Position numbers and translations under genes: made by a program. From NCBI RefSeq assembly GCF_029961145.1, contig NZ_JASBRG010000001.1, positions 248,001-312,000 on the forward strand: a DNA stretch of 64,000 nucleotides, written 5' to 3'. Below the pieces are notes generated by a model. It was not told the origin of the DNA. It saw only the letters and a list, made by a program, of their open reading frames with translations, and ran no database searches. This document shows, piece by piece, positions 30,844 through 58,310 of the stretch; position 1 is the first letter of the stretch; every line of letters starts with the position of its first letter. The stretch comes from Pinibacter soli. Lineage in GTDB: Bacteria > Bacteroidota > Bacteroidia > Chitinophagales > Chitinophagaceae.

Positions 30844-32283
30844 CTATTGTTGCGCTGGTTTCAATTTACGCAACAGATCAACAGCTGCATCTACAAGCAT
30901 TTCACCGGAACCTGGCATCACAATAGAGTTCGTTACTTCGTAACTGCCTTCGGCAAATGCCTTGCGTGTGGGAATATAACTTGTTCTGTTGTTGCACACG
31001 GTAATAACGATTGTATTTTTGAACGGAGAAGCCTTTTTTATAGCAAGTCCGAGCGCTGCAAATATTTCGCCGGGTACGCCAACAATGGCGGTCTCGTTAT
31101 CTATCCTGAACACCTGCACTTCTTCTTCTATTGTTTGCTTGCGTTGTGATAAATTCAAATACTTGCTCATTTCCACACGCTTCAAAAAATCACCCGCTTC
31201 ACCACCCGCATTCTTTACATATGCGCCGGTTTCTTTGGCTTCATACAAACCATTAATGATGATTCTCGCTGAGTCTACTTGTTGCTGCGAAGGAACTTGC
31301 AAAGGCAATGAAACTTTTTGCGACAACATCGCCAGCGCAGGCGCTTTTACCTTTTTCATTTTTGAAACGTTATCGATGACAGTCGAAGCAAGCGCTTTAC
31401 CAAATTGCTGAGGATAGACAGAATCATAGATCGGTAAATCTTTCGTCACATCAATGTGATTCACATCTCCGCAAGGGCCAAGTCCGAAAGCAGAAAAATA
31501 ATTTTTACCGAAATGCTTTTTCAGTGACTGTTCGAGATAATAAGGATAATCAGCGCCGATCTCAGTACCGCCAACGCAATCGGCATGCATGCCAAAAACA
31601 GTAAGGCCTGAAAGAGCTTTTCCAGATTTCGCATCGCAAACCAGTAACATCTCAACATCAGGATCAACGGGTCCTGCGGGAGACACAATGTTTGGATTCA
31701 ATGGGCCGGGGTTGAACATTACCGTTCCGTCTTTCATATAGTAGCGCCGGTTGTGAGAGAAGTTTTGAGTATCAACCAACACCTCCATGACCACCGTATT
31801 CATGTGTGCGTTCGCATTCACAACAGCACGAACAATTTGCTTTTCGAGAAATGTTGGGTAATCATTTTTTTCATGTGTGTCCTCTCCTTTTTGCAATGCT
31901 TTATCATGAAAATAATTTCTTTGAAACCCGTAAAAAAGAGGGCCCGTGTGGCTATGCGTGGCAGCCACTATGATATGACTTATCGGAATGAGCGTCTGCT
32001 CACTGGCCATAGTGCGGGCTTTTGACGAAATATCTGCAGTAATGCCAATAAGATCGCAAAACACAAAAGCGTATTTTTCTTTGCCTTGTTGTAGTACGAT
32101 TGCTTTGGCCCATAATGAATCGTGAATACCGGTAGAAATGATCTCATAAAAATGTCCCGCCAGCCTGCAACCAACAGGCGGCGTAATGTTTGCCTGCGCC
32201 ACACCACTTTTCACAAGCAATTTTTGCGCTTGTGAAAGCATTGGCCACGCCATCAACACAATTATAAAAACCCGAAGTTTCAT
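30844..32283 (-). CDS. Exported neutral-ceramidase-like amidase (N-terminal catalytic domain only)
   Basis: A 479-residue exported protein with a signal peptide (MKLRVFIIVLMAWPMLSQAQ). It follows the catalytic domain of neutral/alkaline ceramidases ('GVAQANITPPVGCRLAGHF', 'FVFCDLIGIT', 'AATHSHTGPLF' with zinc-binding His110 and His112, 'GFGPCGDVNH'). Full-length ceramidases have about 650 residues with a C-terminal immunoglobulin-like domain, which is missing here. The serine nucleophile region, where I would expect a serine before Ala-Asp-Tyr/Trp-Pro, reads 'TEIGADYPYY', so the nucleophile may be replaced by glycine. Bacterial relatives in sugar loci probably cleave amides other than ceramide. 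It is the last gene of a leftward series; the substrate is unknown. Confidence 0.82.
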   Translation of the reverse strand: MKLRVFIIVLMAWPMLSQAQKLLVKSGVAQANITPPVGCRLAGHFYEIISTGIHDSLWAKAIVLQQGKEKYAFVFCDLIGITADISSKARTMASEQTLIPISHIIVAATHSHTGPLFYGFQRNYFHDKALQKGEDTHEKNDYPTFLEKQIVRAVVNANAHMNTVVMEVLVDTQNFSHNRRYYMKDGTVMFNPGPLNPNIVSPAGPVDPDVEMLLVCDAKSGKALSGLTVFGMHADCVGGTEIGADYPYYLEQSLKKHFGKNYFSAFGLGPCGDVNHIDVTKDLPIYDSVYPQQFGKALASTVIDNVSKMKKVKAPALAMLSQKVSLPLQVPSQQQVDSARIIINGLYEAKETGAYVKNAGGEAGDFLKRVEMSKYLNLSQRKQTIEEEVQVFRIDNETAIVGVPGEIFAALGLAIKKASPFKNTIVITVCNNRTSYIPTRKAFAEGSYEVTNSIVMPGSGEMLVDAAVDLLRKLKPAQQ

Positions 32284-32384
32284 TTTTACTTTTTATGCAA
32301 TAACAATGTTTATAATTTATAATCTCAAATACTTACCACTAAGAGTGCCCTTAGTCCCTTAGTTGTGAATGTGAGAGCCCAACA

Positions 32385-32403
32385 TTTTCAAATCTTCAAA
32401 TTA
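32385..32403. repeat. 19-base intergenic repeat copy next to a stop codon
   Basis: The sequence ttttcaaatcttcaaatta is identical to 373-391. Both copies lie immediately after the stop codon of a leftward gene. Confidence 0.6.
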
Positions 32404-33705
32404 TCACATTTTCCTCAACACTTCACCGGCCACTTCAATCGCATGATCAATATCTTCTTGAGTATGCACTGCATTAATGTACCATAAACCTCTTCCAATT
32501 ATACGCACACCACGATCATGCATTGCTGCAATAAATTTTCCCAATCTTGCTTTATCACAAGCCAGCGTATCTCTATGATCTTTGATTACTGCAAGATCTG
32601 TAAATGCAGTATTGAACATTGGTCCCGGCCCCTGCACAAGCAGTTCCTGGCTTGCATCCGCTGCTGCCTTCCTCAAACCTTCCATCAATTGAATTCCCAA
32701 TCGGAACATTCGCTCATAAGGCTGTTCTTTTTCAAGCACCTCAATAGTAGCAAGCGCCGCAGCAATGGTTGGATTGCTGGCGTTCATGGTGCCTGCATGT
32801 ATCACTTTCGCGTCTTCAATCGCATTCATCCATTCTCTCTTTCCCACGATCGCACTGATCGGATAACCACTTCCCATGGCCTTCGCGAAGATGGACATAT
32901 CAGGAGTGATGCCAAAATATTTTTGTGCTCCTGCCAGCGAAAGCCTGAAGCCAGTAATCACCTCGTCAAAAACTAGTGCAATGCCATACTTTGTACACAA
33001 TTCACGCATACCTTCCAAAAAGCCTTGCTCCGGAAGAATACAGCCATTGTTACACATAACCGGCTCAGTGATGATCGCAGCTATTTCATCCTGATATTTT
33101 TCAACAGTTTCTTTTAGCAATGCAAGATCGTTCCATGGAAGAATGATGAACTCATCTTTCGCGTGTTCCGGCAACCCTTCACTCCATGGGTATTTATTAG
33201 GTGCATCACGCTCTCCCAACGCCGCGGCATTTCCAGAAAGTCCCCACGCCACATTATCAAACCATCCATGATAATGCCCTTCGAAACGAAGAAACTTTTT
33301 TCTTCCTGTTTTTGCACGTGCTACGCGAAACGCCGTGTGCACCGCAGATGAGCCATCCAGGCAAAAACGCATTAACTCTGCGGAAGGAATAAGCTTGTTC
33401 AACTTTTCTGCAAGCTCAATCTCTTTTATATGTTGTCCTGCAAACAATTGCCCTTTCTCTGTATAGTCTCCAACACTCTTTAGAACATGAGGGTGAGAAT
33501 GTCCGATGATCAATGGTCCCTGGCTCAACGTAAAATCAAGATATTCGTTGCCATCTACATCGTATATGCGGCTGCCATCTGCATGACTATAAAAAATCGC
33601 ATGCGGATGATTGTATTTTCTAAATTCCGACGAAACGCCTCCTGCCAAAACTTTTTTCGCTCTTTCCAGCAGAGACGCGGATTTCGCGTAAGACACAATC
33701 TCCAT
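32404..33705 (-). CDS. Class III (PLP-dependent) aminotransferase / glutamate-1-semialdehyde aminomutase-like
   Basis: A 433-residue cytoplasmic enzyme of fold type I. It has the HemL-like N-terminus ('LLERAKKVLAGGVSSEFRKYNHPHAIFYSHADGSRIYDVDGNEYLDF'), the phosphate-binding 'DGSSAVHTAFRVARAKTGRKK', the 'VFDEVITGFRLSLAGAQKYFG' Asp that holds the pyridine nitrogen, and the PLP lysine Lys275 in 'FAKAMGSGYP'. Outside heme synthesis, members of this branch act as aminotransferases or aminomutases on hydroxy- or beta-amino acids. Since it lies in a catabolic operon with an MFS carrier, a dehydrogenase and RidA, tetrapyrrole synthesis is unlikely. It would transfer or shift an amino group of a compound imported or released by this locus. 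The substrate is not known. Confidence 0.88.
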   Translation of the reverse strand: MEIVSYAKSASLLERAKKVLAGGVSSEFRKYNHPHAIFYSHADGSRIYDVDGNEYLDFTLSQGPLIIGHSHPHVLKSVGDYTEKGQLFAGQHIKEIELAEKLNKLIPSAELMRFCLDGSSAVHTAFRVARAKTGRKKFLRFEGHYHGWFDNVAWGLSGNAAALGERDAPNKYPWSEGLPEHAKDEFIILPWNDLALLKETVEKYQDEIAAIITEPVMCNNGCILPEQGFLEGMRELCTKYGIALVFDEVITGFRLSLAGAQKYFGITPDMSIFAKAMGSGYPISAIVGKREWMNAIEDAKVIHAGTMNASNPTIAAALATIEVLEKEQPYERMFRLGIQLMEGLRKAAADASQELLVQGPGPMFNTAFTDLAVIKDHRDTLACDKARLGKFIAAMHDRGVRIIGRGLWYINAVHTQEDIDHAIEVAGEVLRKM

Positions 33706-33830
33706 AATCTAATTCGGTTTTAAATGACGTTATGAAAACGCATAAATAAAAAGTCAAAAATCCAGGTACAATCTGCCTGCTTTTTTACGGTCAACTGTCG
33801 CTGGGGTTACAGGGCGAATGCAATTCATCC

Positions 33831-35156
33831 CTACGCTTCTTGTTCTTCAGCGTAACTTTTTACATTTGCTTTTTTACTTTTTACTTTTGATCTCCAATTT
33901 TCGATCTTATATCCTTTGCTAGAAAAAAATACCAACACGAGATAACATGGAACCAGCACGAGCACAGCATTCTGTGGCCTTATGCTATTCAGATCAATTA
34001 ATTTCCCAAACAACAAAGGGAAAATACCGCCGCCCACAACCGACATCAACAGCATGGCTGAACCTACTTTCGTGAATTTTCCTAAATCCCTAATTGCCAG
34101 TCCCCATATCGTTCCCCAAAGCATTGCTGCTCCGAAACCTGTGCACACAAGGCAATACATGGAAACTTCACCGGAACTGTAATACGCTCCTATCGTTAAC
34201 CCAATACCCAAAATGGCGCTCCACAACAGTGCTTTTTGTTGTGATATGAATCGCGGAATAAGAATCGTGCTTGCGGCATATCCCGCAATCATTGCGTACA
34301 AAGTATATTGTGTAAAATGTCGCGCCTCTTCATAAGGCACGCCAAGTGATCTGCCGTAAATAACAATGCCATCAATCGGCAATCCTTCACACGCTGCAGA
34401 AAAGAAAAGTGCAACAACCCCGATCAATAAATACGGATAATGAAACACACTCGACTTGTGTTCAACATTCGAAGTTTCTTCACCGGCGTCTTCGCCCATT
34501 TCGTTTATCTCGGGCATTTTGGAAAAATATATGATCACGGCAAGTGCAAGCAGAATTGCTGTAATGATAATGTAAGGATCAACGATCTTTAAAGAATAGC
34601 TATTTAAAAGCGCGGCTTTTTCCACCGGTGACACCCTGCTTACATTCCCAACGATCGCATCTGCGTCAAACAAAAAAATGGAACCGAGAATGGCGGTACT
34701 CAGAATGCCCGCAAATTTATTGGCAAGCCCCATGAAGCCAATTCGCTGGGCCGTGCTTTCAATAGGTCCAATGATCGCAACATAAGGGTTAACGGCAGTT
34801 TGCAACAACGTAACCCCTCCTCCTGTAATGAACAGACCTGTAAGAAACAAAGGATACGTGCGTGTATATGCAGCAGGTATAAACAAGACGGTTCCAAGGG
34901 CCATTATAATCAATCCGATTACCATTCCCTTCTTGTAGCCGCTATGTTTCAACACCCATGCACTTGGAAGTGCCATGGCGAAATATGCAATGTAGGAAGC
35001 GAACGCTACGAGCGACGCCTGTACGTTTGACAGATCGAGGCATATTTGAAAATAAGGAATCAAGATGCCTGTGAGCCACATCAAAAAGCCAAACGAAAAA
35101 AACAACGTTGCTATGATCGAAAGCGGATAAATATATGATTTGGTCTTTGCTGTCAT
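33831..35156 (-). CDS. MFS sugar transporter of the FucP/GluP (FHS) family
   Basis: A 441-residue inner-membrane carrier with 12 hydrophobic segments. The family signatures are present: the start 'SIIATLFFSFGFLMWLTGILIPYFQICLDLSNVQASLVAFASYIAYF', and 'GGGVTLLQTAVNPYVAIIGP...AQRIGFMGLANKFAG' in helices 4-5. These carriers import fucose, rhamnose-like, glucose or galactose sugars with protons, and would take up sugars released by the hydrolases of this locus. The last 15-20 residues (SKVKSKKANVKSYAEEQEA) are encoded by an AT-rich intergenic-type repeat ('aaaagtaaaaagtaaaaaagc' on the coding strand). The original stop has probably been bypassed and the tail is non-essential. It is 27 bases upstream-to-downstream from the dehydrogenase gene, in the same operon. 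Confidence 0.93.
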   Translation of the reverse strand: MTAKTKSYIYPLSIIATLFFSFGFLMWLTGILIPYFQICLDLSNVQASLVAFASYIAYFAMALPSAWVLKHSGYKKGMVIGLIIMALGTVLFIPAAYTRTYPLFLTGLFITGGGVTLLQTAVNPYVAIIGPIESTAQRIGFMGLANKFAGILSTAILGSIFLFDADAIVGNVSRVSPVEKAALLNSYSLKIVDPYIIITAILLALAVIIYFSKMPEINEMGEDAGEETSNVEHKSSVFHYPYLLIGVVALFFSAACEGLPIDGIVIYGRSLGVPYEEARHFTQYTLYAMIAGYAASTILIPRFISQQKALLWSAILGIGLTIGAYYSSGEVSMYCLVCTGFGAAMLWGTIWGLAIRDLGKFTKVGSAMLLMSVVGGGIFPLLFGKLIDLNSIRPQNAVLVLVPCYLVLVFFSSKGYKIENWRSKVKSKKANVKSYAEEQEA

Positions 35157-35183: not shown

Positions 35184-36164
35184 TTATACGCTCGTTTTCT
35201 TCTTCTCACGTTGCGAAGGATACATCGCTGCAAGCCTGTAAATATCCACGTTAAACGCTGCGAATGCTTCATCCCATCGCTTTGCTTCATCAGGCGTATA
35301 AGAATAAAGACCGAGGCAATTGCGTGTGCCTTTTGCATTCTTATCTACCATTTTTTGCATGAGCGCCGGAATTTGTTCGTCGTTACAAAACTGTGGCGCC
35401 AATCTGTTGTACGATTCAAATGCATCTTTGAGACCGAGATAATCCATCCTTCTGAATATGCCCATTAGCGTTATCCACGAACCTACATCATACCTGAATG
35501 CTTTGTCAACATCTTCAAATGTCGCATCGCCTTTAGCAACAATGCTCAAACCTTCCCTGTATACGGCATACATCAGGCGATTGGTAACAAAGCCGCGGAT
35601 ATCTTTGCGCAACAAGGTTGGTTCTTTGCCCCAATGATGTGCAAGTTCATAAACCCATTCTGCATGTCCCGCATCTGTTTGCGCACCGCAAGTAATTTCC
35701 ATGAAGCGTGTGAAATAAGAAGGTTCCGCCCAGTGTATACCCAGGAAACGCTGCGGTGCAACAAGTCCCTTTTGTAACTCGCTGATCGGTATTGCCGACG
35801 TGTTGCTGGCAAGAATAGCATCAGAGCTTATAATCGCTTCTACTTTTTTATAAACAGCACGTTTAATTTCCGCCATCTCGATTACACACTCCAATACAAG
35901 ATCACAAGGAGCCAGCAAAAGATAATCTTCTGAGATCACGAGTTGCGACAAATAAGCATTCACCGGCTTGTCCAATGTTCCTGCATCCTCGCAAATCAAC
36001 AGGTGTTCACGAATACGCTGTGGTGCATCTACCATATCTTCTTTGATCGGTGCTATTGCCTTAACCTTGTGGCCCGCAATCAGCAGCGACACAATAAGAC
36101 TTGTCCCCATCAGACCAAGCCCTACTACGCCCACATCTATTTTTTTAGTTTCAATTTGTTTCAT
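35184..36164 (-). CDS. 3-hydroxyacyl-CoA dehydrogenase-family oxidoreductase (possibly sugar-acid or hydroxy-acid dehydrogenase)
   Basis: A 326-residue cytoplasmic NAD(H)-dependent protein. The Rossmann motif 'GLGLMG' is at 15-20. The catalytic set of the family is complete in motif form: 'ILASNTSAIPISEL' (Ser), His144 in 'LGIHWAEPSYFTRFMEI', and Asn in 'GFVTNRLMYAV'. The 'WAEP' replaces the 'FFNP' of true acyl-CoA enzymes, and there is no acyl-CoA pathway nearby. The same fold includes L-gulonate 3-dehydrogenase (lambda-crystallin) and carnitine dehydrogenase, so a polar hydroxy acid is a more plausible substrate here. It lies between RidA and the MFS carrier. A paralogue with lost catalytic residues lies at 57378-58310. 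Confidence 0.85.
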   Translation of the reverse strand: MKQIETKKIDVGVVGLGLMGTSLIVSLLIAGHKVKAIAPIKEDMVDAPQRIREHLLICEDAGTLDKPVNAYLSQLVISEDYLLLAPCDLVLECVIEMAEIKRAVYKKVEAIISSDAILASNTSAIPISELQKGLVAPQRFLGIHWAEPSYFTRFMEITCGAQTDAGHAEWVYELAHHWGKEPTLLRKDIRGFVTNRLMYAVYREGLSIVAKGDATFEDVDKAFRYDVGSWITLMGIFRRMDYLGLKDAFESYNRLAPQFCNDEQIPALMQKMVDKNAKGTRNCLGLYSYTPDEAKRWDEAFAAFNVDIYRLAAMYPSQREKKKTSV

Positions 36165-36207: not shown

Positions 36208-36591
36208 TTACAATTTCACGATGCAATCAATTTCCACTTTTATACCTTCTGCCAAAACAGATTGCACGGTGGTTCTCGCAGGCCTTACACCTTTGAAATA
36301 GCTTGCATACACTTTGTTATATCGATCAAACTCAGTGATATCACTCAAATGAACGGTGCTCTTTACAATCCTGTCCATTGTTCCGCCTGCTGCTTCAATG
36401 ATCGCTTTGATATTATCGAGCGTGCGTGTCGTTTCCTCTTCTATCGTGCCAAGAATGAACTGCGATGTTTTGAAATCGACAGAAGCCTGTCCGCTCACAA
36501 ATAAAAAGCCATCCACTATCACGCCATCTGAGTAAGCGCCAGTCACGAATGAAGGATCTCTATTGGGGTGATTCACTTGTATCTTATCCAT
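36208..36591 (-). CDS. ridA: RidA/YjgF-family enamine/imine deaminase
   Basis: A 127-residue cytoplasmic protein, the normal family length. Conserved residues include Arg106 in 'VRPARTTVQ', which holds the substrate carboxylate, and Glu120 in 'VEIDCI'. RidA enzymes hydrolyse reactive 2-aminoacrylate-type enamines that PLP-dependent dehydratases release, turning them into keto acids and ammonia. In this locus a D-threonine aldolase/D-serine dehydratase-family enzyme (55142-56260) and a class III aminotransferase (32404-33705) are candidate sources. The gene is 43 bases upstream of the dehydrogenase gene in the leftward operon, so a dedicated rather than general housekeeping role is likely. Confidence 0.9.
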   Translation of the reverse strand: MDKIQVNHPNRDPSFVTGAYSDGVIVDGFLFVSGQASVDFKTSQFILGTIEEETTRTLDNIKAIIEAAGGTMDRIVKSTVHLSDITEFDRYNKVYASYFKGVRPARTTVQSVLAEGIKVEIDCIVKL

Positions 36592-36657: not shown

Positions 36658-38946
36658 TTATTTTACTGTAATGGTTGTTTGCAACAAAATATTATCAGAG
36701 GTACCAACCTGCAACTCATACTCTCCCGGCTCCACTACTTTTCGCATATCAGCATTGTATAAGGCGAGTTCACTTATCGGCAGATCGAATGCGACCTTTA
36801 CAGTACCTCCTTTTTTAATGAACACTTTCTCAAATCGTTTCAATTCTTTTACCGGTGTTTCCACAGAACTTACTTTATCACGCACATATAATTGCACGAC
36901 TTCTTTACCATCCATATAGCCGGTGTTGCTTACAGCTATTTCGATGTGACAATTTTCTTTTTCAGTGAACGAAGTCTTCGACACTTTCATGTCATTGTAC
37001 TTGAAAGTTGTGTAACTCAATCCTGAACCAAAGGCCCACAGCGCATCAGGGCTCGAGAAAACATAATCTCTTCCAAGTGTATCAACGGAACCCGGTTTGT
37101 GATAATAACCTTTGTCGGAAGGGTAATGATTATAGTACACAGGTAAATGACCGACACTTTGCGGAAACGAAACGTTGAGTTTACCGGAAGGATTTGTTTT
37201 TCCAAACAACACTTCTGCAATGGCCGTACCGCCTTGTTCGCCCGGATACCATTGCGTAATGATAGCAGGAATATTTTTTTTCACCCATGGCATTGCAAAT
37301 GGCTTTCCTGCTACAAGTACTACCACAACAGGTTTGCCCGTTGCCTGCACCGCTTTTATAAGATCTTCCTGCGCACCGGTCAATGTAAGATCAGTAAGAT
37401 CGTATCCTTCACCACTTGTCGCGTTGGGGAATTTATGTCCGGATGACGCACTTTGTGATCCAACAAAGATCACCGCTGCATCGCTTTTTTGCGCAGCCGC
37501 AACAGCCTCTGCAATTCCACTTTTGTTCTGCGTATGTATATCGCAACCTCTTGCATAGTTAAGTGAAACACTGTTTCCTACAAGTGCGCGAAGTCCTTGC
37601 AATGGCGTTACTCCGTTTTTATTGTCACCTGTCCATGTGTAGTCGCCAAACTGAACCTGGTCAGCACTTGGACCAATCACCGCCAATGATTTGACATTGC
37701 TTTTGAAAGGCAGCAATGAATTCTCGTTCTTCATTAGCACGATCGATTCTCTTGCTATATCCAATGCCAGTTGAACGGATTGCGGTGTATGAATAGAAGT
37801 TTTTAAAAGTTCAAGATCAGGATAAGGATTCTCAAAAAGACCGATCACAAATTTGGCTCTTAATATGCGTGCAACGGCAGTATCGATGTACTTAACAGGC
37901 AATGCGCCGCTTTGCACAAGACTATCCAGCGTGCCATAACAATCGCTCCACACTTCCAGGTCAAGGCCCGCTTTCACCGCCTGCAAAGCTGCATTGGCAG
38001 AGTCTTTGGCCGTGTAATGAAAATTGTAAAGCATTTGAACAGATGCCCAGTCTGAATATACATATCCATTAAAGCCCAGATCGTTGCGAAGTATGTCGGT
38101 AAGGATATGATGCGATGCGGCTACGGGAACTCTATCATATGAACTGTAAGCATTCATGATGCTCATCGGCTGCGCTTCTTTTATTACTGCTTCAAAAGGT
38201 TTCAGATAAATGGAGCGTAGCTCTCTTTCGCCGCCTGCAACTGTCGCAAGATTCAGGCCGCCTGCGGGCGAGCCATGTGCCACAAAATGTTTAGGGGTAC
38301 AAACGATGTCGCCTTCTTTGAAACCTTTCACAAATGCAACGCCCATGCGGCTTGTAAGGTATGGATCTTCGCCATACGTTTCTTCCACTCTTCCCCAGCG
38401 CAATTCACGTGCAAGGTCAAGGTCTGGAGATAGCACCTGGTTGGAACCTTGTGCCTTCAATTCAGGTGTGATCATTTTCACCATTGCATTTACCAGCGAT
38501 GGATTGAATGTGCTGCCCAATGCAATGGCTTGCGGATAAATAGTGGCGCCGCCATGCACACAACCATGCAATGCTTCCGACGATGTAAAAACCGGAATAC
38601 CAAGCCGCGTTTTTTCCACCATGTAATGTTGTATAGTATTGATGGCTTGTGCGTATTCTTCCACGCTAAGCCCCATACCCTCAAACACGCCATAACTAAG
38701 GCTTTTTAGCCTCTTGTTCATTTTATCCTCATCTATCTTTTTGCCATCGGCAAATTCGCTGAAGGAAAGATCCTGCATTTGTGACACTTTTTCCTGCAGT
38801 GTCATTCGCTTCACTAAATCCTTTACCCTTGCTTCTATTGGCGCTTTGGCATCTTTGTAAAGCGGCGCTTCAACGGCTTTCCTTTTGGGTTGAGCAAACA
38901 TAAGTCCCGGCACCATGACAAATAAAAATAATGTCTTCTTTTTCAT
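36658..38946 (-). CDS. GH3 beta-glucosidase-like glycoside hydrolase
   Basis: A 762-residue exported enzyme with a signal peptide (MKKKTLFLFVMVPGLMFAQ) from the start at 38946; the longer frame to 38985 lacks one. It has the GH3 layout: an N-terminal (beta/alpha)8 barrel with the nucleophile Asp299 in 'GYVYSDWASV', the second alpha/beta sandwich ('ESIVLMKNENSLLPF', 'GYDLTDLTLTGAQEDLI'), and a C-terminal fibronectin III-like domain ('VEPGEYELQVGTS'). Family members release beta-linked glucose or related sugars from the non-reducing end. A second GH3 enzyme (59048-61267) is only moderately similar, so the two likely differ in linkage or substrate. It sits 66 bases upstream of RidA in the leftward series. 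Confidence 0.94.
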   Translation of the reverse strand: MKKKTLFLFVMVPGLMFAQPKRKAVEAPLYKDAKAPIEARVKDLVKRMTLQEKVSQMQDLSFSEFADGKKIDEDKMNKRLKSLSYGVFEGMGLSVEEYAQAINTIQHYMVEKTRLGIPVFTSSEALHGCVHGGATIYPQAIALGSTFNPSLVNAMVKMITPELKAQGSNQVLSPDLDLARELRWGRVEETYGEDPYLTSRMGVAFVKGFKEGDIVCTPKHFVAHGSPAGGLNLATVAGGERELRSIYLKPFEAVIKEAQPMSIMNAYSSYDRVPVAASHHILTDILRNDLGFNGYVYSDWASVQMLYNFHYTAKDSANAALQAVKAGLDLEVWSDCYGTLDSLVQSGALPVKYIDTAVARILRAKFVIGLFENPYPDLELLKTSIHTPQSVQLALDIARESIVLMKNENSLLPFKSNVKSLAVIGPSADQVQFGDYTWTGDNKNGVTPLQGLRALVGNSVSLNYARGCDIHTQNKSGIAEAVAAAQKSDAAVIFVGSQSASSGHKFPNATSGEGYDLTDLTLTGAQEDLIKAVQATGKPVVVVLVAGKPFAMPWVKKNIPAIITQWYPGEQGGTAIAEVLFGKTNPSGKLNVSFPQSVGHLPVYYNHYPSDKGYYHKPGSVDTLGRDYVFSSPDALWAFGSGLSYTTFKYNDMKVSKTSFTEKENCHIEIAVSNTGYMDGKEVVQLYVRDKVSSVETPVKELKRFEKVFIKKGGTVKVAFDLPISELALYNADMRKVVEPGEYELQVGTSDNILLQTTITVK

Positions 38947-39079
38947 ACGGTCACATCGTTTTGCGATCTTTCTGCAATCGTTCATTTCAAAAATAATTAA
39001 AACCGATTTTGCGCTAACATACTATTTACAACAATTATGATACTTTCATACAACATCCACATCATGCATTTTCTATTCA

Positions 39080-50017: not shown

Positions 50018-53000
50018 TTATAGATCTACCTGCAGGCCGCAAGACCATGTTCTGAAATAAGGATATGTTCTTCCGAAACTTTTAGGATCAGTAAAGCCCT
50101 GCACAGAGTTTTGTTGAACTTCCGGATCGATGGACATTGTTACTTTATCGATGGTGAACAGGTTTTCACCGCTTGCAAACACGCGTGCCCTCGCGATGCC
50201 GATTTTTTGTGTCATTGTTCTTGGCAATGTGTAACCAACGGTAATGTTCTTCATGCGCATATATGCCATGTTTAGCAGATAGCGTGTTTGTGGTTGCCAG
50301 TTCGCATTGTGATTGTTTGCACCAGGATTGGAAGCTGCGGGATAGAAGGCGTTGAGATTATCTGGCGTCCAGTAGTCCATTTGATTTTGATACACTGCTT
50401 CTGCAATGGTGAAGGCGGGAATGAAAAGAGAACCGGTTCCCCAATAATCTCTTTTACCTACACCCTGAAAATATGCGCTGACATCAAAGCCCGCATAGTT
50501 GAGTCCTAGTCTCAATCCATATAAATAACGCGGAGTTGTGTTGCCGATCACATGCATATCACCATGATTGAGGTTTGTTCCTTTACCAAAGTCTACCGCG
50601 CCACTGCCATCTGCGTCCACATACTTTACATCGCCGGGACCAAAGTGAAATGCAGAGCTTGTATTTAATGCATCCTGGTTGGGTGTTTTTGCGTCGTAGT
50701 TCCATGTTGGATTGGCCTGGCCGTTGTTGCCGTTGAAATCAGAGGTCTTAAACAACCTGTCTGTTGTATAGCCCCAGATCTCCCCCATTGTTTTGCCCTG
50801 GTAGTTAGGCACATCGTTACCACCCGGCATGATGTTCACTTCTGTGTTGGCAAACTTTGTGATCGTGCTCGTAGCATCTGAAATGTTGCCACCGATGCTT
50901 ATGCCAAGACCATTATTAAATATTTTGTCGTAAGAAATAGCAAGCTCCCATCCTTTTGTCACCATTTCACCGAAGTTGCGCTTAGAAGCCGCAGAACCCA
51001 GTGAAGACGGCACTTCCACACCTGTTGTCACCATTCCTTTTGTTGCGCGGCTGTACATATCGAAGTCAACAGACAACGCATCGTGGAAAAATTTCGCATT
51101 CAATCCAAGGTCCGTTGTTTGTACGGTTTCCCATGTCAGGGAAGTAGACACGTTATCATACACGTCCACTTTTGTTGGGTTTTGTCCCGCGCCGATCCAC
51201 CAGCCCGAAGGTGATGCATTCATGCTGCGCAGGTATGAGTTTGAACCGATGTCGTTGTTACCAACAGAACCCCAAGAACCTCGTACTTTGAAAAACGACA
51301 ATGGTGTTTTCTCTTTCACGCCCTGCATGAATTTTTCATTGGTAACAATGTAGCCCGCAGAGAATGAAGGGAACGTACCCCATTTTTGCGTTGGAGGAAA
51401 ATTGGATGCTCCATCTCTTCGGATGTTTGCTTCCAGCAAATATTTTCCTTTGTAAGAGTAGTTAAGACGACCGAAATAGCCGAGTGTTGACCAGTGTGTA
51501 GGATAACCGTTCACTGTTTGTGTACCCGTTGTAAGATTCAATGTAGGTTTGGATGCCAGCATCAAACCTGTTGCTGAGGAATATTGGAATTCGGAAAGAT
51601 AGTATTCAGCATCAACGCCGGCCATTGCTTTAAAGCTGTGGCCATTCATATCTTTTGTGTAAGTAGTGTATGCTTTGGCAACGTTTCTTTTTGTCCATAC
51701 TGCATTCTCTCTTACGTAGTCTTCTGCAGGGAAATAGTTCGTTACCACTTTTGTAAGCGTTGCATCTGTCCAACTATCGATACCGGATATTGGTGAAGTG
51801 GCGATGTTGGAATGAGCGTTTTCTATAGAGTAAGTATAGTCAACATCTGCAGTCCAACCTTTCATGAAGGTCAGTGTAGCACCGGTTTGCAAACGAGCCT
51901 GGTCAGTACTCAGCGAGTTCATGTGGGCCTGTTGCAATTCCGTGAGAATGTTTTTCATTGGCGTTCCGTTGAAGGTGCCATAAGGATATGTTTCAGGATA
52001 ACGATAAATATTGAACCAGTATTCATTCGCACCTGCTGTAGCATTAGCGAGCCTGAAGTTTGGATATTTCTTTTTAGAAGTAAACGCCATCAATGACGCC
52101 CGGGCGGTGAACCAGTTGTTTACTTTTGTTTCTACTCTTGCAGTACCATTGAAGCGTGTGAATCTGTCTGGCTCAGGAGTTACTTTCACCAACCCTTTCT
52201 GATCCATAATGCCTACGCTGGCATAATAAGTTGTTTTACCATCACCACCGGAAATAGAAAGGTTGTGTTTCATTTGCGGTGATGCGTTATTTAAAAATAC
52301 ATTGTCAGCGTCGAATGCACGATAGTAGTAAGTCTGACCCGCACGACGCTCAAAGTCGCGTCCTTCCACTAAGTCAGGACCGAGGTCCATGCCGCCGTAT
52401 AATTTTTTCCATTGTCTCATACGATCGATGCTAATATCATCATAGTATGCTCCAAGAATGTTGAAGCTAGCGGTGTTAGGAGCTGTTCTTCTGTAGGCTT
52501 GTAACATGAACTCCGCACCATCTGCGCCGTCAGCGATCTTTGGCGTGTTCATTGGAGATGACCATGCGAAGTTGTTTTCGTAAGAAATGCGCGGAACGCC
52601 TTTCTTTCCTTTTTTAGATGTAAGCAAGATAACGCCCCACGATGCACGTGATCCGTAAATAGAGGCTGCTGCTGCATCTTTAAGAACAGAGATCGACTCG
52701 ATGTCTGAAGGGTTTACCATCATCATGTTTGGAATGGGCACGTTGTCGAGCAGGATCAATGGAGTAGCGTCTGCATTCACAGAGCCGTTTATACCACGAA
52801 GGTGTATCTCCGGAGATTGTCCAAGATCGCCACTTGACGTTGTGATCATCAGGCCCGGGGAAGCGCCTTGCAAGCCACGGGCCAGATCAGGCACGGGCCG
52901 GGAGTCTAAAGTTTTTTGCAGATCAATGGTAGAAACAGCACCGGTGAGATCGGTCTTTTTCTGGCTACCATATCCCACTACCACCACCTGTTCGAGTGAA

Positions 53001-53296
53001 GAAGCTGTCTTCTTCAAAGTGATATTGATAGTGGTGTTGCGGCCGAGCACTACTTCCTGAGAAGCAAAGCTTACTGAAGTGAACACCAATGTTTGCCCGG
53101 TGTTGGCTTTGATAGAATAACTACCGGTGGCATCTGTGTGTGTGCCCTGTTTGGAACCTTTGACGGTGATGGTAACCCCCGCCAGCGGCAGAGAGCCTTC
53201 ATCCACAACTTTACCATTTACTGTTGCCTGTTGCCCCCATGTGAACATGCAGGCAAAGAACGTGCACAGCAATAGCAGGGTCATTCTTTTTTTCAT
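50018..53296 (-). CDS. susC: SusC/RagA-family TonB-dependent outer-membrane transporter
   Basis: A 1092-residue protein. A signal peptide (MKKRMTLLLLCTFFACMFTWG) is followed by a carboxypeptidase-regulatory-like domain ('VNGKVVDEGSLPLAGVTITVKGSKQGTHTDATGSYSI'), the conserved 'VVVVGYGSQKKTDLTGAV' segment leading into the plug, and a 22-stranded barrel with a C-terminal aromatic strand ('YFRTWSCGLQVDL'). It imports oligosaccharides or glycosides across the outer membrane with TonB/ExbBD energy, together with SusD. It is preceded by a 215-base gap containing a structured region (53382-53465) rather than a clear -7 box. A regulator (ECF sigma or SusR-like) was not found nearby, but AraC genes occur at 6.4 and 30 kb. 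Confidence 0.97.
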   Translation of the reverse strand: MKKRMTLLLLCTFFACMFTWGQQATVNGKVVDEGSLPLAGVTITVKGSKQGTHTDATGSYSIKANTGQTLVFTSVSFASQEVVLGRNTTINITLKKTASSLEQVVVVGYGSQKKTDLTGAVSTIDLQKTLDSRPVPDLARGLQGASPGLMITTSSGDLGQSPEIHLRGINGSVNADATPLILLDNVPIPNMMMVNPSDIESISVLKDAAAASIYGSRASWGVILLTSKKGKKGVPRISYENNFAWSSPMNTPKIADGADGAEFMLQAYRRTAPNTASFNILGAYYDDISIDRMRQWKKLYGGMDLGPDLVEGRDFERRAGQTYYYRAFDADNVFLNNASPQMKHNLSISGGDGKTTYYASVGIMDQKGLVKVTPEPDRFTRFNGTARVETKVNNWFTARASLMAFTSKKKYPNFRLANATAGANEYWFNIYRYPETYPYGTFNGTPMKNILTELQQAHMNSLSTDQARLQTGATLTFMKGWTADVDYTYSIENAHSNIATSPISGIDSWTDATLTKVVTNYFPAEDYVRENAVWTKRNVAKAYTTYTKDMNGHSFKAMAGVDAEYYLSEFQYSSATGLMLASKPTLNLTTGTQTVNGYPTHWSTLGYFGRLNYSYKGKYLLEANIRRDGASNFPPTQKWGTFPSFSAGYIVTNEKFMQGVKEKTPLSFFKVRGSWGSVGNNDIGSNSYLRSMNASPSGWWIGAGQNPTKVDVYDNVSTSLTWETVQTTDLGLNAKFFHDALSVDFDMYSRATKGMVTTGVEVPSSLGSAASKRNFGEMVTKGWELAISYDKIFNNGLGISIGGNISDATSTITKFANTEVNIMPGGNDVPNYQGKTMGEIWGYTTDRLFKTSDFNGNNGQANPTWNYDAKTPNQDALNTSSAFHFGPGDVKYVDADGSGAVDFGKGTNLNHGDMHVIGNTTPRYLYGLRLGLNYAGFDVSAYFQGVGKRDYWGTGSLFIPAFTIAEAVYQNQMDYWTPDNLNAFYPAASNPGANNHNANWQPQTRYLLNMAYMRMKNITVGYTLPRTMTQKIGIARARVFASGENLFTIDKVTMSIDPEVQQNSVQGFTDPKSFGRTYPYFRTWSCGLQVDL

Positions 53297-53511: not shown

Positions 53512-54897
53512 TTAGTAAACGGGTTTCTTTTCTGGATCCGGCTCTGCACCGTATTCACCACCACACTTGATCAATACGCCCTGTCCTGCCGTGAGCCAGA
53601 TACCGTCTTTATGTCTTGCCTGCACCAGTTCTCCATTCTCTCCTACATTTAATGTCCAGATTTTCTCCTGGTCTATTTTTGTTTTGATATCAAACTTTGC
53701 AGAGCGTTCAAGACTAAGATTTACAACCATCACATATTTTGTTCCCGACACGCTCACAAATTCGCCTACCATCATCGGCGCATCTGTTTCTATTTTCTGC
53801 ACCCAATTACCGGGCAATGCAGGCAACGAACTATCGGGTGCCGGTGACGTGAAATATAAACCTGTTGAAGTAAGTTTTTTCATGACAGGACCAAGCACAC
53901 TCAATTGCCTGTTTACTTCCTGCAGGTATCTCCAGGTTAGTGTTTTATTTTCATTTTTATCTATTGGATTGTAACCGTATGCCTGTCCGTGGTAAGTGTA
54001 CCATCTTATACCACCTGCGCCTGCTGCCAATGTAGTGTATGCCTGAAAGGCAAGATTGGCGGGCGATGGAATGGTAGTAAACGGTCTTATCTGATTAGCA
54101 GAAACAACATTCACAAACGGAAGATTGTACTTTAAAGCAATGCGGCGCATTTCTACCAAATTAGTATAGTAGCTTAGTCCTCTTGCCTTGTTAGTCATGT
54201 CCATAGACATTTCCACCATGTAGTTATCGTAGCTCAGTATCTGAGGCTTTACTTCGTTTACAAATTTTTCAAGATACTCTGTATAAGTCTTCGTGCCCAG
54301 TTGCGATTTAAGTTGATCAAGTTCCCAAATCGTTGCATAATTAGGATAAAGATTGATGGCTGCCAGTTTATCAGGAGCATACTTTTTTACTGCTGCCACC
54401 GCTTTTGCAAGTTGTGGAAAAGCTAACGCAGAAGGCTCATCACAGATATGATATCCAATGATCGATTTGCTTTTGCCCGCTTTTTTGATCATATTTTTTA
54501 TGTAGGCGTCGATCTCATTGTCAGACATTTTCATCCACTCTTTGCCAGTTAGATGCGGTCCTTCGGAAACGATAACAGACAATCCAAGTTTTTCGCAAAG
54601 CTTGTAATTTTGCGGATCGGCGGCATCAGCAATGGTGAAGTTGCAATCTGCCATGCCTTCCAATCCTTTCTCGCGGTCAACAAATTTATTGTGGTGATAA
54701 TCCCTGCCAATCAGGAAAGCATCGGTGGCAAATTTTTGTGACTTAGTTTTTCCAATACCCAGCTCGTCAACACTATTGCTTGTATTTACATTCTCAATAT
54801 TTGTTTGCTGCGCAAATGAAGCAGCGGAGAATGTGAGTGCCGATATCAACAAATAATGTTTGCAATTGATCAACCTTCCGGCGAAGATTTTTTTCAT
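53512..54897 (-). CDS. Exported (beta/alpha)8 glycosidase-like protein with Asp-Glu-Pro motif
   Basis: A 461-residue exported protein (signal 'HYLLISALTFSAASFAQ' within the first 30 residues). The barrel-like core carries Asp153-Glu154 in 'YHICDEPSALAFPQL', 'AAINLYPNY', 'QILSYDNYMVEMSMDM', and a 'GGIRWYTYHGQAYGYNP' segment. About 100 C-terminal residues form a small beta domain. The DEP motif resembles those of the two larger barrel paralogues, although overall similarity is low. I cannot name a family. It is the first gene of the susC operon by position, with a good promoter box at 54947-54954, and may act on the same glycan. It might also be a non-catalytic surface glycan-binding protein. 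Confidence 0.6.
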   Translation of the reverse strand: MKKIFAGRLINCKHYLLISALTFSAASFAQQTNIENVNTSNSVDELGIGKTKSQKFATDAFLIGRDYHHNKFVDREKGLEGMADCNFTIADAADPQNYKLCEKLGLSVIVSEGPHLTGKEWMKMSDNEIDAYIKNMIKKAGKSKSIIGYHICDEPSALAFPQLAKAVAAVKKYAPDKLAAINLYPNYATIWELDQLKSQLGTKTYTEYLEKFVNEVKPQILSYDNYMVEMSMDMTNKARGLSYYTNLVEMRRIALKYNLPFVNVVSANQIRPFTTIPSPANLAFQAYTTLAAGAGGIRWYTYHGQAYGYNPIDKNENKTLTWRYLQEVNRQLSVLGPVMKKLTSTGLYFTSPAPDSSLPALPGNWVQKIETDAPMMVGEFVSVSGTKYVMVVNLSLERSAKFDIKTKIDQEKIWTLNVGENGELVQARHKDGIWLTAGQGVLIKCGGEYGAEPDPEKKPVY

Positions 54898-55141: not shown

Positions 55142-56260
55142 TTAATAACAGATTTTACGGTCTCTTGCGATGATATTCCATGATCCGGCAACAGCACCAT
55201 CTTCTATTATTACGGCATTTTTATACAATGCAACTGTAGGACACACATGCATAGGCAATGCATACAGCACATCATCGATCTTCCATGAATGCGCTCCGCT
55301 TGTTTTCAGTACGAGATGTTCCTCGCTTTGCCCAACAGGCGTTAACCCCGGTGCATTGAGAAAAGAAAAACGGTTGGCGAGCATATTTTCTGCAGCAATG
55401 GCTTTGTGCCCCATATCTACACATATCAATCCTTCTGCGGGCAGCGACACAACTCTTGTGATGACCAGTGCAGCTGTAAAAAATTTTTGTTCCGGCAAGC
55501 CATCGGTATATCCTTTATCCCAAAAAATAAATGTTCCGGGACTGCATTCCACATCCTGCTCCTTTGCATAAATGGGAAATGAAGGTGAACCACCACCCAC
55601 CAGTTGCACATTTTCGTTGTGGCCACTGTCTGTAATCGCGGTTTTTAATTGTCGTACAGATGATAAAACTTCATTACACTCGCCACTGCGCTTTTCAAGA
55701 TCAATCTCTTTTATGTGGCCATCATAAAAATGCAGGCCGCCGAATGATATTCCTTTAAGTGATGCAATATGCTTGTAAAGGTCGATCGCATCTTCACCTG
55801 GTGAAATGCCCGTTCTGTTCATGCCCACATTCAAATCAATGAGCACAGGAATCACTATATTTTCGCCGATAGCTGCGTTCGAAATCGTTTCTGCAATGGT
55901 TCTGTGATCAACAAGGCACGAGTATTTAGTAGCGGGATAATTTTTAACCAGGGAAATAAAACGCTGCAATTTCGGTCCCGCCGGCTGATAGGCGAGCAGC
56001 ACATCGGGTGCCTGCACCATTCCCAGCATTTCCGCTTCCGCGATGGTGGCGCACTTAAATTTCCTGATACCTTCATCCATCATCATCTGTGTCGCCTCTT
56101 TCGTTTTATGTGTTTTCACATGTGGACGCAACCGTGAAGCATCGCCGATCATGAGTTTCAGCAACTTCACATTTTCTCTCATTCTGTCCGCATAAAAGAT
56201 CAATGCAGGAGAATCTATGTTGTCAATTCCGGGAATATGGTACCAGCTTTCGGTTGTCAT
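55142..56260 (-). CDS. D-threonine aldolase / D-serine dehydratase-family PLP enzyme
   Basis: A 372-residue cytoplasmic enzyme with the alanine-racemase-like (beta/alpha)8 barrel and a C-terminal beta domain. The PLP lysine is Lys49 in 'RLRPHVKTHK', the family signature. The metal-binding pair typical of the D-threonine aldolase/D-serine dehydratase group is visible as His338 and Cys340 in 'MHVCPTVALY'. Members cleave or dehydrate D-beta-hydroxy amino acids (D-serine, D-threonine, D-3-hydroxyaspartate). A dehydratase would release an enamine for RidA (36208-36591). It is co-directional with the M19 dipeptidase and the dehydrogenase-like gene (25- and 9-base gaps), so a three-gene module for D-amino acid or hydroxy-amino-acid use is likely. 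Confidence 0.9.
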   Translation of the reverse strand: MTTESWYHIPGIDNIDSPALIFYADRMRENVKLLKLMIGDASRLRPHVKTHKTKEATQMMMDEGIRKFKCATIAEAEMLGMVQAPDVLLAYQPAGPKLQRFISLVKNYPATKYSCLVDHRTIAETISNAAIGENIVIPVLIDLNVGMNRTGISPGEDAIDLYKHIASLKGISFGGLHFYDGHIKEIDLEKRSGECNEVLSSVRQLKTAITDSGHNENVQLVGGGSPSFPIYAKEQDVECSPGTFIFWDKGYTDGLPEQKFFTAALVITRVVSLPAEGLICVDMGHKAIAAENMLANRFSFLNAPGLTPVGQSEEHLVLKTSGAHSWKIDDVLYALPMHVCPTVALYKNAVIIEDGAVAGSWNIIARDRKICY

Positions 56261-56285
56261 GACATTTCAATTTGTAGTAAACGCA

Positions 56286-57368
56286 TCACGCCCAGGCATT
56301 GCGCAGAAACCTGATCCAGTTTTTGTGAAATATATTCTCTACATCATCCATCGTGTATCCACGCTTGAAAAGTAAAGACTGGTATTTCTGCAAGTCTGCA
56401 ATGCTGTCCATATCCCAGGGCGATTGTTCGGTACCAAAGATACCGTCAAGATCGCTGCCAATTGCAATGTGATAACTGTTGCCGGCTATCTGGCAAATAT
56501 GATCCCAATGATCAATTAGTTTTTCAAGTTTAATATCCAGTTGCCATGGATCAGATACAGTATCAATGAAACGTATGTCCATCGCCCAGCAATCAAGCAT
56601 GCCGCCTATTACAGCACCATGATCAAGCAGTTGCTTTATCTGTTCGTCAGTAAGTTGTCTTTGCGTGGGCACGAGTTTGCGCACATTGTGATGGCTCGCC
56701 CATATGGGACCACGATATGTTTTCATGGCTTCGTCAAAGCCATCATCAGTAAGGTGTGTAACATCGAGAATAAGATTCAACTTGCTCATTTCTTTCAGCA
56801 ATTCTTTTCCCAATGGTTTGATGCTTCCTTGTGTTTTAGTGCCCGGGGCATATCGTCCCGGTCCGAAGTGTGAGAGGCCAACTGCTCTTAAACCATAGTC
56901 GTACGCTCTGTGCAGATATGAAATTTCAACAAGCGAATCAGCACCTTCAAGACTCAAAATATATCCAATCGGTTTCTTTTCATCGTCTATACTTTCATCG
57001 TTCCAAAGTGCAAGATGAGCATCTAATTGTTTGGTGTCTGTAATCTGCACCATCTCGTTCATTGCTTCCATTTCTTTGTACCATGCAAGCTGTGCCTGCG
57101 TCATGGCCCATGCCTGTTGTGGGGAGTGCCACCCCGGCAGCGAGCTGCCACTCGCTGATACCCGGGAAATTTGTGTGGCTACTACCAAGCCGATCTTGCC
57201 TTTTCTCAGTTCCGGCAGGCACACTGTGCCACGGCCTCTGTCAGGTTTATCTTTCATATGCATTTCCCTCGCTCTTATTTCATCCAGCGGACGCGTAAGG
57301 TCGCGGTTCCACTCAATGGCATTCATTGCGAGATCAAGGTGTGCATCGAATATCAAAGTCTTTTTCAT
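56286..57368 (-). CDS. M19-family dipeptidase (renal dipeptidase type)
   Basis: A 360-residue zinc enzyme of the M19 family. Metal ligands are visible in 'IFDAHLDLAMN' (His10, Asp12), 'ILSLEGADSL' (Glu), 'ILDVTHLTDDGFDEAM' (His) and 'IWASHHNVRKLV' (His). No signal peptide is present, so it probably acts in the cytoplasm. M19 enzymes hydrolyse dipeptides, including those with D-residues at the C-terminal position, and some cleave N-acyl-D-amino acids. Between an upstream dehydrogenase-like gene (9 bases) and the D-threonine-aldolase-like gene (25 bases), its likely task is to free a D-amino acid or an amino acid conjugate. The actual substrate is unknown. Confidence 0.92.
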   Translation of the reverse strand: MKKTLIFDAHLDLAMNAIEWNRDLTRPLDEIRAREMHMKDKPDRGRGTVCLPELRKGKIGLVVATQISRVSASGSSLPGWHSPQQAWAMTQAQLAWYKEMEAMNEMVQITDTKQLDAHLALWNDESIDDEKKPIGYILSLEGADSLVEISYLHRAYDYGLRAVGLSHFGPGRYAPGTKTQGSIKPLGKELLKEMSKLNLILDVTHLTDDGFDEAMKTYRGPIWASHHNVRKLVPTQRQLTDEQIKQLLDHGAVIGGMLDCWAMDIRFIDTVSDPWQLDIKLEKLIDHWDHICQIAGNSYHIAIGSDLDGIFGTEQSPWDMDSIADLQKYQSLLFKRGYTMDDVENIFHKNWIRFLRNAWA

Positions 57369-57377
57369 TGCTGTTTT

Positions 57378-58310
57378 TTACTGATCTTCTCCGAAAGGAT
57401 ATTTTCGAATGATGTGTTGCACTTCGTGACTAAATTTTCCTACAACTTCTTTCCATTGCTCCACTGCATCCTTATCATATTCATAGAAACCAAAACCATT
57501 CTCCATTCCCAAACCTCCCTGTCCCATTATCTCCTGGAAGAATGCAGGCGCCTTTGACGACCTCGACAATTCACGATTAAGATCTTTCATCACAAGCCCA
57601 TACGCATAAGTTCCCATGAGGTCCATATATCTGAAATTACCGGCAAACGGCAGATAATAGCCCGCATCGTTTCTGCATGCACGATCCACGTCCTCTATTG
57701 ATGCGTAGCCATTGTGTACCAGATGAAATGCCTCTCGGGCCATCGCATATAACATTTTGGCTCGCACGCTCACTTCACCCCAAATCAGATAAGGGTCTTT
57801 CGTCCAATGTTGTTTTGCAAGATTGAGAAGGTTAGCGGCCAACACTTTGTTAGTAATGTCATTGGTAATAATCTCGAGAAAATGTGTTGTATGGGCAGGT
57901 TCAGTCCAGTTCAACCCCATCAACCTTTCCGGTTGGCTGCAGTCTTTCTGCAACTCCTGCAAGGCAATACTTTCCATGTTTATGGCGATGATGGTTTCTA
58001 CCCCAACCATTCTTTCTACAGTGCAGATGGCCATCTTTTTTTCAGACAGATCTTCCTCAGTAACAATTATTGCTACGCCATATTTTTTTTCATCAGGCTT
58101 TGTCTTTATCATTAGCCTGTCAGTCGCTATCCTATTGCCATTTGCCTTATATGCTTCATTACAATGTTGTTTTATACAATCTGATGCCTGTTCATCTTCT
58201 GTTATCATAGTCACCCAACATCCCGTCTGTAACATACAAACAGCTATACTGTGCGATAATTTTCCTTTTCCCCAAATCAACACGGGCAAGCGCTCATAGT
58301 TTTTATCCAT
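57378..58310 (-). CDS. 3-hydroxyacyl-CoA dehydrogenase-fold protein with lost catalytic residues
   Basis: About 310 residues from 58310 (MDKNYERLPVLIWGKG); an in-frame ATG at 58334 is also possible. It is a paralogue of 35184-36164 by length and motifs ('GYASIEDVDRACRNDAGYYLPFAGNFRYMDLMG' matches 'GDATFEDVDKAFRYDVGSWITLMGIFRRMDYLG'). The nucleotide-binding motif is changed (GKGKLS instead of GxGxMG). The catalytic positions differ: 'IIAINMES' for the Ser-containing 'ILASNTS', Asn for His in 'MGLNWTEP', and Ala-Lys for the conserved Asn-Arg. It is therefore probably not a standard dehydrogenase; it may be a regulatory or structural partner of the paralogue, or an enzyme of different chemistry. 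It is the first gene of the dipeptidase/D-threonine-aldolase-like module, with a promoter box at 58384-58391. Confidence 0.8.
   Translation of the reverse strand: MDKNYERLPVLIWGKGKLSHSIAVCMLQTGCWVTMITEDEQASDCIKQHCNEAYKANGNRIATDRLMIKTKPDEKKYGVAIIVTEEDLSEKKMAICTVERMVGVETIIAINMESIALQELQKDCSQPERLMGLNWTEPAHTTHFLEIITNDITNKVLAANLLNLAKQHWTKDPYLIWGEVSVRAKMLYAMAREAFHLVHNGYASIEDVDRACRNDAGYYLPFAGNFRYMDLMGTYAYGLVMKDLNRELSRSSKAPAFFQEIMGQGGLGMENGFGFYEYDKDAVEQWKEVVGKFSHEVQHIIRKYPFGEDQ

Follow-up and report, generated by a model that had tools for sequence, protein, structure and literature searches.

The 64,000-nucleotide stretch analysed here (the window; contig NZ_JASBRG010000001.1, positions 248,001 to 312,000, from the 5.9 Mb genome of Pinibacter soli, family Chitinophagaceae) contains a locus of 17 genes, all on the minus strand (30844–58334), in which a block of glycan-utilization genes is enclosed by genes for predicted cytoplasmic enzymes of nitrogen-compound metabolism. 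In the order of transcription, the locus opens with HCD2, a putative pseudo-dehydrogenase of the 3HCDH fold (57378..58334; Pfam 3HCDH_N/3HCDH; the start codon is TTG, and the first internal ATGs are at 58322 and 58310), followed by M19, an amidohydrolase of the M19 dipeptidase family (56286..57368; PF01244, 159 bits), DTA, a predicted pyridoxal phosphate (PLP) enzyme of the D-serine dehydratase type (55142..56260; alanine-racemase-N/D-ser_dehydrat, PF01168/PF14031), and a 461-amino-acid protein with weak, sub-threshold similarity to GH42 (53512..54897; Pfam GH42, E=0.006), for which no PDB match is found at E<=0.1 and which, among the loci examined, is confined to the genus. Next come the TonB-linked receptor SusC (50018..53296; TIGR04056, 806 bits), the lipoprotein SusD (48190..49998; PF07980), a small lipoprotein-like protein with a Listeria-Bacteroides repeat (47794..48156; PF09479), the glycosidase-like protein GH42-like b with a GH42-trimerisation domain (45577..47760; PF08532, 31 bits; GLMA_2nd sub-threshold), a GH78 alpha-L-rhamnosidase (42848..45577; PF17389, 357 bits), a sulfatase (41258..42808; PF00884, PF16347; CSPSR motif at residue 101), a second protein with a GH42-trimerisation domain, GH42-like a (39080..41224; PF08532, 33 bits), and a GH3 beta-glycosidase (36658..38985; PF00933/PF01915). 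The last five genes encode the enamine/imine deaminase RidA (36208..36591; TIGR00004, 109 bits with a cut-off of 106.25), HCD1, a 3-hydroxyacid dehydrogenase of the active type and the 3HCDH fold (35184..36164; PF02737, 126 bits), a NagP/FucP/GluP-like MFS sugar transporter (33831..35156; TIGR01272, 229 bits with a cut-off of 202.55; the NagP model gives 320 bits, under its cut-off of 625), AT3, a GSAM-like class III aminotransferase (32404..33705; PF00202, Aminotran_3, 215.8 bits), and CER, a ceramidase-like hydrolase (30844..32283) with a borderline match to PF04734 (32.7 bits, cut-off 32.1) that covers residues 27–234 only and a PDB match at E=6e-6.

The 16 intergenic gaps are short, the tightest being a 1-base overlap and the longest 244 bases (GH3 and RidA are 66 bases apart), which makes a single operon, or a few, plausible. 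At its ends, the locus is delimited by an AraC regulator gene on the opposite strand (29971..30840, plus strand; PF12833), 3 bases from CER, and by the next gene upstream of HCD2, at a distance of 713 bases. Judged by eye, starts resembling export signals are present in the glycan proteins, the 461-residue protein and CER, and are not seen in RidA, HCD1, AT3, DTA, M19 or HCD2. An earlier, first-pass annotation of this DNA had described SusCD, GH78, GH3 and a sulfatase interleaved on one strand with a ceramidase-like amidase, a class III aminotransferase, RidA, a PLP enzyme, an M19 dipeptidase and two proteins of the dehydrogenase fold; all of these are recovered on the minus strand within the span that it outlined, and the MFS transporter, the two GH42-trimerisation proteins, the small lipoprotein-like protein and the 461-residue protein are added here. 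SusC adjoins SusD amid co-directional carbohydrate-active enzymes, as in a polysaccharide utilization locus (PUL), and the joint presence of SusCD, GH78, GH3, GH42-like proteins, a sulfatase, a sugar MFS transporter and AraC is shared with such loci; the locus differs from a PUL in that the genes enclosing the glycan block form a cytoplasmic nitrogen cassette, which has its own, separate distribution.

This distribution was delineated from two sources. A search of 147 genomes of the family with HCD2 yields 24 matches at E<=1e-20, which comprise nine genomes with an HCD2 orthologue (45–100% identity) and otherwise HCD1-type proteins; named genomes were scanned with an HCD1 alignment, and the best 80 loci were taken, more being present. 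The HCD2 loci from both sources, minus the duplicate L080 and three entries from the genus itself, make up a set of 27 loci in which gene presence was counted by tblastn, with a threshold of E<=1e-8 for glycan genes. These loci belong to six Bacteroidota families (Chitinophagaceae, Cytophagaceae, Spirosomataceae, Sphingobacteriaceae, Cyclobacteriaceae and Saprospiraceae). HCD2 is accompanied by AT3 at 26 of the 27 loci, by HCD1 also at 26 (the exception, G081, has its copy on its second stretch, about 14 kb away), by M19 and by an amidase-like gene, CER_I, at 21 each, by RidA at 19 and by AraC relatives of the window's regulator (57–70%) at 15; DTA is present at six loci and MFS at two. Contig ends account for several of the misses (L039, L075, L139), and the contig that bears the cassette of one Cyclobacterium also encodes M19, RidA and a ceramidase-like protein further along. 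The commonest gene order is RidA-HCD1-AT3-HCD2-M19-CER_I, with DTA last where present. Outside the genus, 101 HCD1 loci were compared after removal of five duplicate contigs; those that carry M19 also carry RidA in 26 of 43 cases (3 of 58 for the others), AT3 in 22 of 43 (5 of 58) and DTA in 12 of 43 (0 of 58). M19 copies with at least 77% identity are encoded in only nine of the 147 family genomes, the same nine that have HCD2, and always beside it; M19 alone was rejected as a marker of the cassette given that 53 of the 147 genomes contain a copy at E<=1e-100. At E<=1e-140, AT3 is found in 14 places in 11 of these genomes, namely nine HCD2 loci, two loci of a different type (type II, RidA-CER-AT3-MFS-HCD1-M19, without HCD2) and three elsewhere, so that 5 of the 14 are without HCD2. 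By its gene content, the cassette recurs as one unit across the six families.

Relatives of the window GH78, GH3, sulfatase, GH42-like proteins, 461-residue protein and SusD are found at 0 of the 27 loci. These co-occurrence counts indicate that the nitrogen genes are co-conserved with each other and not with GH78; thus, of the joint conservation of amino-acid and glycan genes that the first-pass annotation had proposed to look for in related genomes, the part that concerns the amino-acid genes among themselves is borne out and the link to GH78 and the other glycan genes is not. Likewise, in the six genomes outside Pinibacter that have an HCD2 orthologue among the family genomes, the nitrogen genes are clustered and the window glycan genes are not found with them. 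SusC-like genes of 23–36% identity do occur near 12 of the 27 cassette loci. L069 (Mucilaginibacter) and L086 (Cytophagaceae) share the order RidA-HCD1-MFS-AT3 with the window and have adjoining SusC genes; L069 additionally encodes two proteins with matches below the threshold, one to SusD of the window (E=2.8e-8) and one, with a GH42-trimerisation domain, to its GH42-trimerisation counterpart (E=5e-4), and L040 has a SusD recognized by Pfam. Conversely, the surroundings of the four best SusD matches (43–47% identity; 17 are listed outside the genus) contain neither a window glycosidase nor a cassette gene.

Within the genus, the glycan block lies inside the cassette in all three Pinibacter genomes (the window's, G109 and G009), where the cassette is split and permuted into HCD2-M19-DTA, the glycan genes and RidA-HCD1-MFS-AT3, all on one strand. 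The contig of G109 breaks off beyond AT3, which leaves CER and AraC out of view in that genome, and GH42-like a is present in the window genome alone, being listed in neither of the other two. GH42-like b at E<=1e-60 is found in 3 of the 147 family genomes, all of them Pinibacter. The sole DTA (E<=1e-20) and the sole M19 (E<=1e-100) of each genus genome are those of this locus; each genome also has one GntP gene, which stands apart from DTA and M19. Because the arrangement recurs in both other genus genomes and the nitrogen genes cluster far outside the genus, chance is ruled out. The simplest history compatible with these comparisons would be that the cassette came first and that, in the Pinibacter line, the glycan block was inserted or rearranged into it.

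The most surprising element of the cassette is the conserved pseudo-dehydrogenase. The catalytic set of HCDH was mapped onto HCD1 and HCD2 by spacing, with Ser, Glu and Asn taken from the HCDH mutants named in PDB titles and with His as the remaining member. In all 103 distinct sequences, including an outlier of 25% identity, HCD1 retains the complete set of Ser, His, Glu and Asn characteristic of a 3-hydroxyacid dehydrogenase, and the GxGxxG glycines are present in 101, the other two having gaps. HCD2 lacks this catalytic set, with three of the four main positions lost: in 30 of 30 distinct sequences His is replaced by Asn, the catalytic Asn is gone and Glu is retained, whereas Ser is replaced by Glu in 28 of 30 and listed in none. 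In a quick tree, the 30 HCD2 rows form one clade with long internal branches (SH-aLRT 100) and the cassette HCD1 proteins another clade of 30 rows (SH-aLRT 99); a 31st row labelled HCD1, the protein with 25% identity, falls outside the latter. Among structures, the HCD2 model finds its matches in those of HCDH, with 4OM8 at the top (E=2e-17). The same structure, FHMPC dehydrogenase, a non-CoA dehydrogenase of the 3HCDH fold, is the best solved sequence match of HCD1, which also matches lambda-crystallin (L-gulonate 3-dehydrogenase) and keeps the catalytic residues; the difference from these non-CoA dehydrogenases is that HCD1 of the window is accompanied by an inactive-type paralogue.

HCD2 is best read, from this residue pattern, as a conserved pseudo-dehydrogenase partner of its active-type paralogue HCD1. 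A less probable explanation is that HCD2 is an enzyme with a new activity that employs the conserved Glu and Asn in place of Ser and His, and the conservation of the replacements themselves (Asn in 30 of 30, Glu in 28 of 30) is compatible with it. However, the nucleotide-binding glycines are degraded, the second Rossmann glycine being retained in 16 of 30 sequences, and the N-terminal domain drifts, with a mean pairwise identity of 0.36 compared to 0.58 for the C-terminal domain (0.55 and 0.58, respectively, in the cassette HCD1), which argues against a new activity. The poor model confidence of the C-terminal domain of HCD2 was considered as a sign of a missing partner and rejected, the HCD1 control being equal (18 sequences each); as both C-terminal domains are poorly predicted, the models say nothing on a partnership of the two proteins. 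The pair represents a clean case of a bacterial catabolic unit in which an active-type enzyme is combined with a paralogue that is conserved but of the inactive type.

DTA contains the PLP lysine (Lys49) and the metal pair His338-x-Cys340 in 15 of 15 copies. According to a report that uses AxDTA numbering (PMC4401734), D-threonine aldolase has the metal pair His347 and Asp349 and the base His193, and D-serine dehydratase has a His/Cys pair and is without the aldolase base His. The best PDB scores of DTA over the whole length are those of D-threonine aldolases; nevertheless, aldolase chemistry was rejected as the first choice given that Cys takes the place of Asp in all 15 copies and the position aligned to His193 is Glu, Asp or Thr. 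The protein thus has the metal pair and the PLP lysine of the Zn-type D-serine dehydratases, and its metal site marks it as a predicted enzyme of that type and not an aldolase, which suggests a better annotation for the 'D-TA family' here. Chicken DSD, the Zn-dependent D-serine dehydratase (PDB 3ANU), shares the PLP lysine and the His-x-Cys pair with the window DTA; the difference is that, over its whole length, the window protein scores higher against D-threonine aldolases. The succession of a PLP dehydratase, an enamine and RidA, suggested in the first-pass annotation, fits this dehydratase-type site. DTA may also be akin to D-glucosaminate dehydratase.

In M19, the positions of the binuclear metal-ligand motif are conserved throughout the 51 copies, a number that includes duplicates, with Asp306 gapped in one. 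Four loci chosen from the M19 matches of the 53 genomes (L177–L180) provide a second association, which favours D-amino-acid chemistry: three of them contain a GntP-RidA-DTA-M19 operon (L177:8087-12124, L178:8187-12184, L179:4920-9081), and L180 has M19 and the same type of RidA without DTA or GntP. The GntP permease family includes the D-serine transporter DsdX, and this operon is probably involved in D-serine-type catabolism. In the operon of Chitinophagaceae, DTA and M19 are 51–54% and 60–62% identical, respectively, to the window proteins and a RidA gene stands beside them, but that RidA is of a different type (28% identical to the window's), and AT3, HCD1, HCD2 and the glycan genes are not found there.

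Two other candidate assignments do not hold. AT3 is not HemL, scoring 352.4 bits against an equivalog cut-off of 527.3, with another gene of the genome at 595.5. The window CER was rejected as the cassette's own amidase; it is 23–28% identical to the cassette amidases, whereas the CER_I copies are 45–58% identical to one reference copy (a near relative at 91% aside). Outside the window, L073:2574-4931 encodes an Amidohydro_2 domain fused to a class III aminotransferase (Pfam), and a gene of similar length, L078:17635-19998, matches AT3.

In other genomes, the genes around the cassette favour amino-sugar acids as the putative substrates; they include aldolases of the 2-keto-3-deoxy-acid type (HpcH/HpaI and DHDPS). 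Genes for an HpcH/HpaI aldolase, a GFO/MocA-type oxidoreductase and an SDR protein are each present at 10 of the 27 loci, and an aldo/keto reductase at nine. DHDPS is encoded in the type II locus L046, adjoins AT3 at G123 and is about 7 kb from AT3 at G028; GH109 is found with HCD1, M19 and SDR at three of the 59 named HCD1 loci without HCD2; and a SelA-like PLP protein and Amidohydro_3 adjoin one cassette locus; the amidohydrolase-AT3 fusion protein points the same way. In the window, the transporter is NagP/FucP-like, and matches to glucosaminidases come from the GH2 gene next to AraC and, below threshold, from the GH42-like proteins. Since 2-amino-2-deoxy-D-aldonates are beta-hydroxy-alpha-amino acids of D configuration, M19, cleaving an acyl-D-amino acid, and a D-serine-dehydratase-type enzyme could both fit such a compound. 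An example is L072:4570-9423, where the cassette is adjoined by genes for an HpcH aldolase, an aldo/keto reductase, a GFO/MocA-type protein and an SDR protein; nine other loci are similar, of which L036 is without the aldo/keto reductase in its stretch. At L176:14938-16419, in the vicinity of DHDPS and AT3, a gene flanked by a RidA-like and an aldo/keto-reductase-like gene encodes a protein that by its N-terminus appears, by eye, to be MlrC-like.

These observations lead us to propose, with moderate confidence, that the locus is a PUL built inside a wider, separately inherited cytoplasmic cassette, RidA-HCD1-(MFS)-AT3-HCD2-M19-(amidase)-(DTA), in which both parts would serve one catabolic route. 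SusCD would import an oligosaccharide, to be broken down in the periplasm by GH78, GH3, the GH42-like enzymes and the sulfatase, and the NagP/FucP-like transporter would carry a nitrogen-bearing monomer into the cytoplasm. There, M19 would cleave an amide of the acyl-D-amino-acid type, DTA would dehydrate the beta-hydroxy-alpha-amino acid of D configuration that is thereby released (either D-serine-like or a 2-amino-2-deoxy-sugar acid) and RidA would hydrolyse the enamine to a 2-keto acid, with AT3 and HCD1 acting on the amino and 3-hydroxy groups and HCD2 as a putative non-catalytic partner of HCD1. From the gene families involved, we infer that the imported glycan most likely bears an amine and contains rhamnose and that the cassette would consume a D-configured N-acyl hydroxy-amino acid, possibly an amino-sugar acid. 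The latter is the preferred candidate class. A more far-reaching version, which we consider tentative and rather unlikely in its full form, is that RidA-HCD1-AT3-HCD2-M19 constitutes an uncharacterised non-phosphorylative pathway for N-acyl amino-sugar acids, joined to varied glycan and transport systems of Bacteroidota, with an obligate heteromer of HCD1 and the pseudoenzyme HCD2, in which mainly the C-terminal, interface-type domain would be constrained.

Several points weigh against the proposed route. DTA is missing from 21 of the 27 cassette loci (in four of these 21 genomes that were checked, it is encoded elsewhere in each), so that dehydration is not an obligate in-place step of the cassette. 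A sugar-1-dehydrogenase, a lactonase and a 2-keto-3-deoxy-acid aldolase are not found in the window cassette, and the GFO-type oxidoreductase that accompanies the cassette in other genera is not found in the window genome in a search run without a positive control. Matches to SGSH_C and to glucosaminidase domains are either weak or spread across the whole family, and DHDPS is not found on the contig of the type II locus of G063.

The main competing explanation, close to the one offered originally, is that the imported glycan bears an amide-linked D-amino or hydroxy-amino acid (for instance, D-serine on a uronic acid), with CER and M19 releasing it and the dehydratase and RidA degrading it. Amide-linked amino-acid decoration is one of the two good readings of the substrate, and it draws on the co-occurrence of M19, DTA and RidA, their sharing of the separate GntP operon at three of four loci, the His-x-Cys dehydratase site and the fact that this locus holds the only DTA and M19 of the three genus genomes. 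Still, the explanation as a whole seems improbable to us: the window amidase is unlike that of the cassette, all 27 other cassette loci are without matches to the window GH78, GH3 and sulfatase, and the sugar-type MFS transporter, HCD1/HCD2 and AT3 are better explained by a sugar acid. An amino-sugar acid accounts for the same genes at least as well as an amino acid linked by an amide to a sulfated or rhamnosylated glycan. Less likely still is a plain PUL beside an unrelated amino-acid operon, with the cassette merely interrupted and no shared substrate. In its favour, the glycan genes and the cassette are separately inherited outside the genus in what was examined; against it, the block and the cassette that surrounds it share one strand, no gap exceeds 244 bases and RidA follows GH3 after 66 bases, this enclosed arrangement is kept in three of three genus genomes, and other SusC genes are near the cassette at 12 of 27 loci.

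PULs are usually read from their glycosidases. The distribution of the enclosed cassette is wider and separate, so that it is assayable by itself; knowledge of its substrate would reveal a missing monomer of several PULs. Literature searches for PULs with a D-threonine aldolase, for 3HCDH pseudoenzyme paralogues and for RidA with a dipeptidase and an aminotransferase or with D-serine dehydratase returned nothing on this system, as judged by titles and the starts of abstracts.

Several further gene neighborhoods were observed. In the window, the AraC gene is adjoined on the plus strand by a GH2 gene (27124–29868) whose product has an Ig-fold domain of the exo-beta-D-glucosaminidase type (86 bits with a cut-off of 26.3), and the region upstream of HCD2 (59048–63396 and L168) encodes a GH3 protein and a third GH42-like protein, followed further on by SusC/SusD-like genes, and is probably a second glycan locus. 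HCD1 is found in another context at L043, L045, L050 and L056: in L043, the row consists of creatininase-like, RidA, HCD1, enolase-superfamily and DHDPS genes, and the other three contain clustered relatives of the L043 genes, with RidA listed only in L043 and L045. A family of 765-amino-acid proteins without a Pfam match (L041:2053-4350, L083, L141, L144, L134) is encoded beside HCD1 loci both with and without HCD2. Finally, judged by the sizes and order of the open reading frames, fourteen Dyadobacter loci (L093, L097, L099, L107, L109-L112, L115, L117, L120, L122, L123 and L136) share yet another HCD1 neighborhood, without M19 or AT3.

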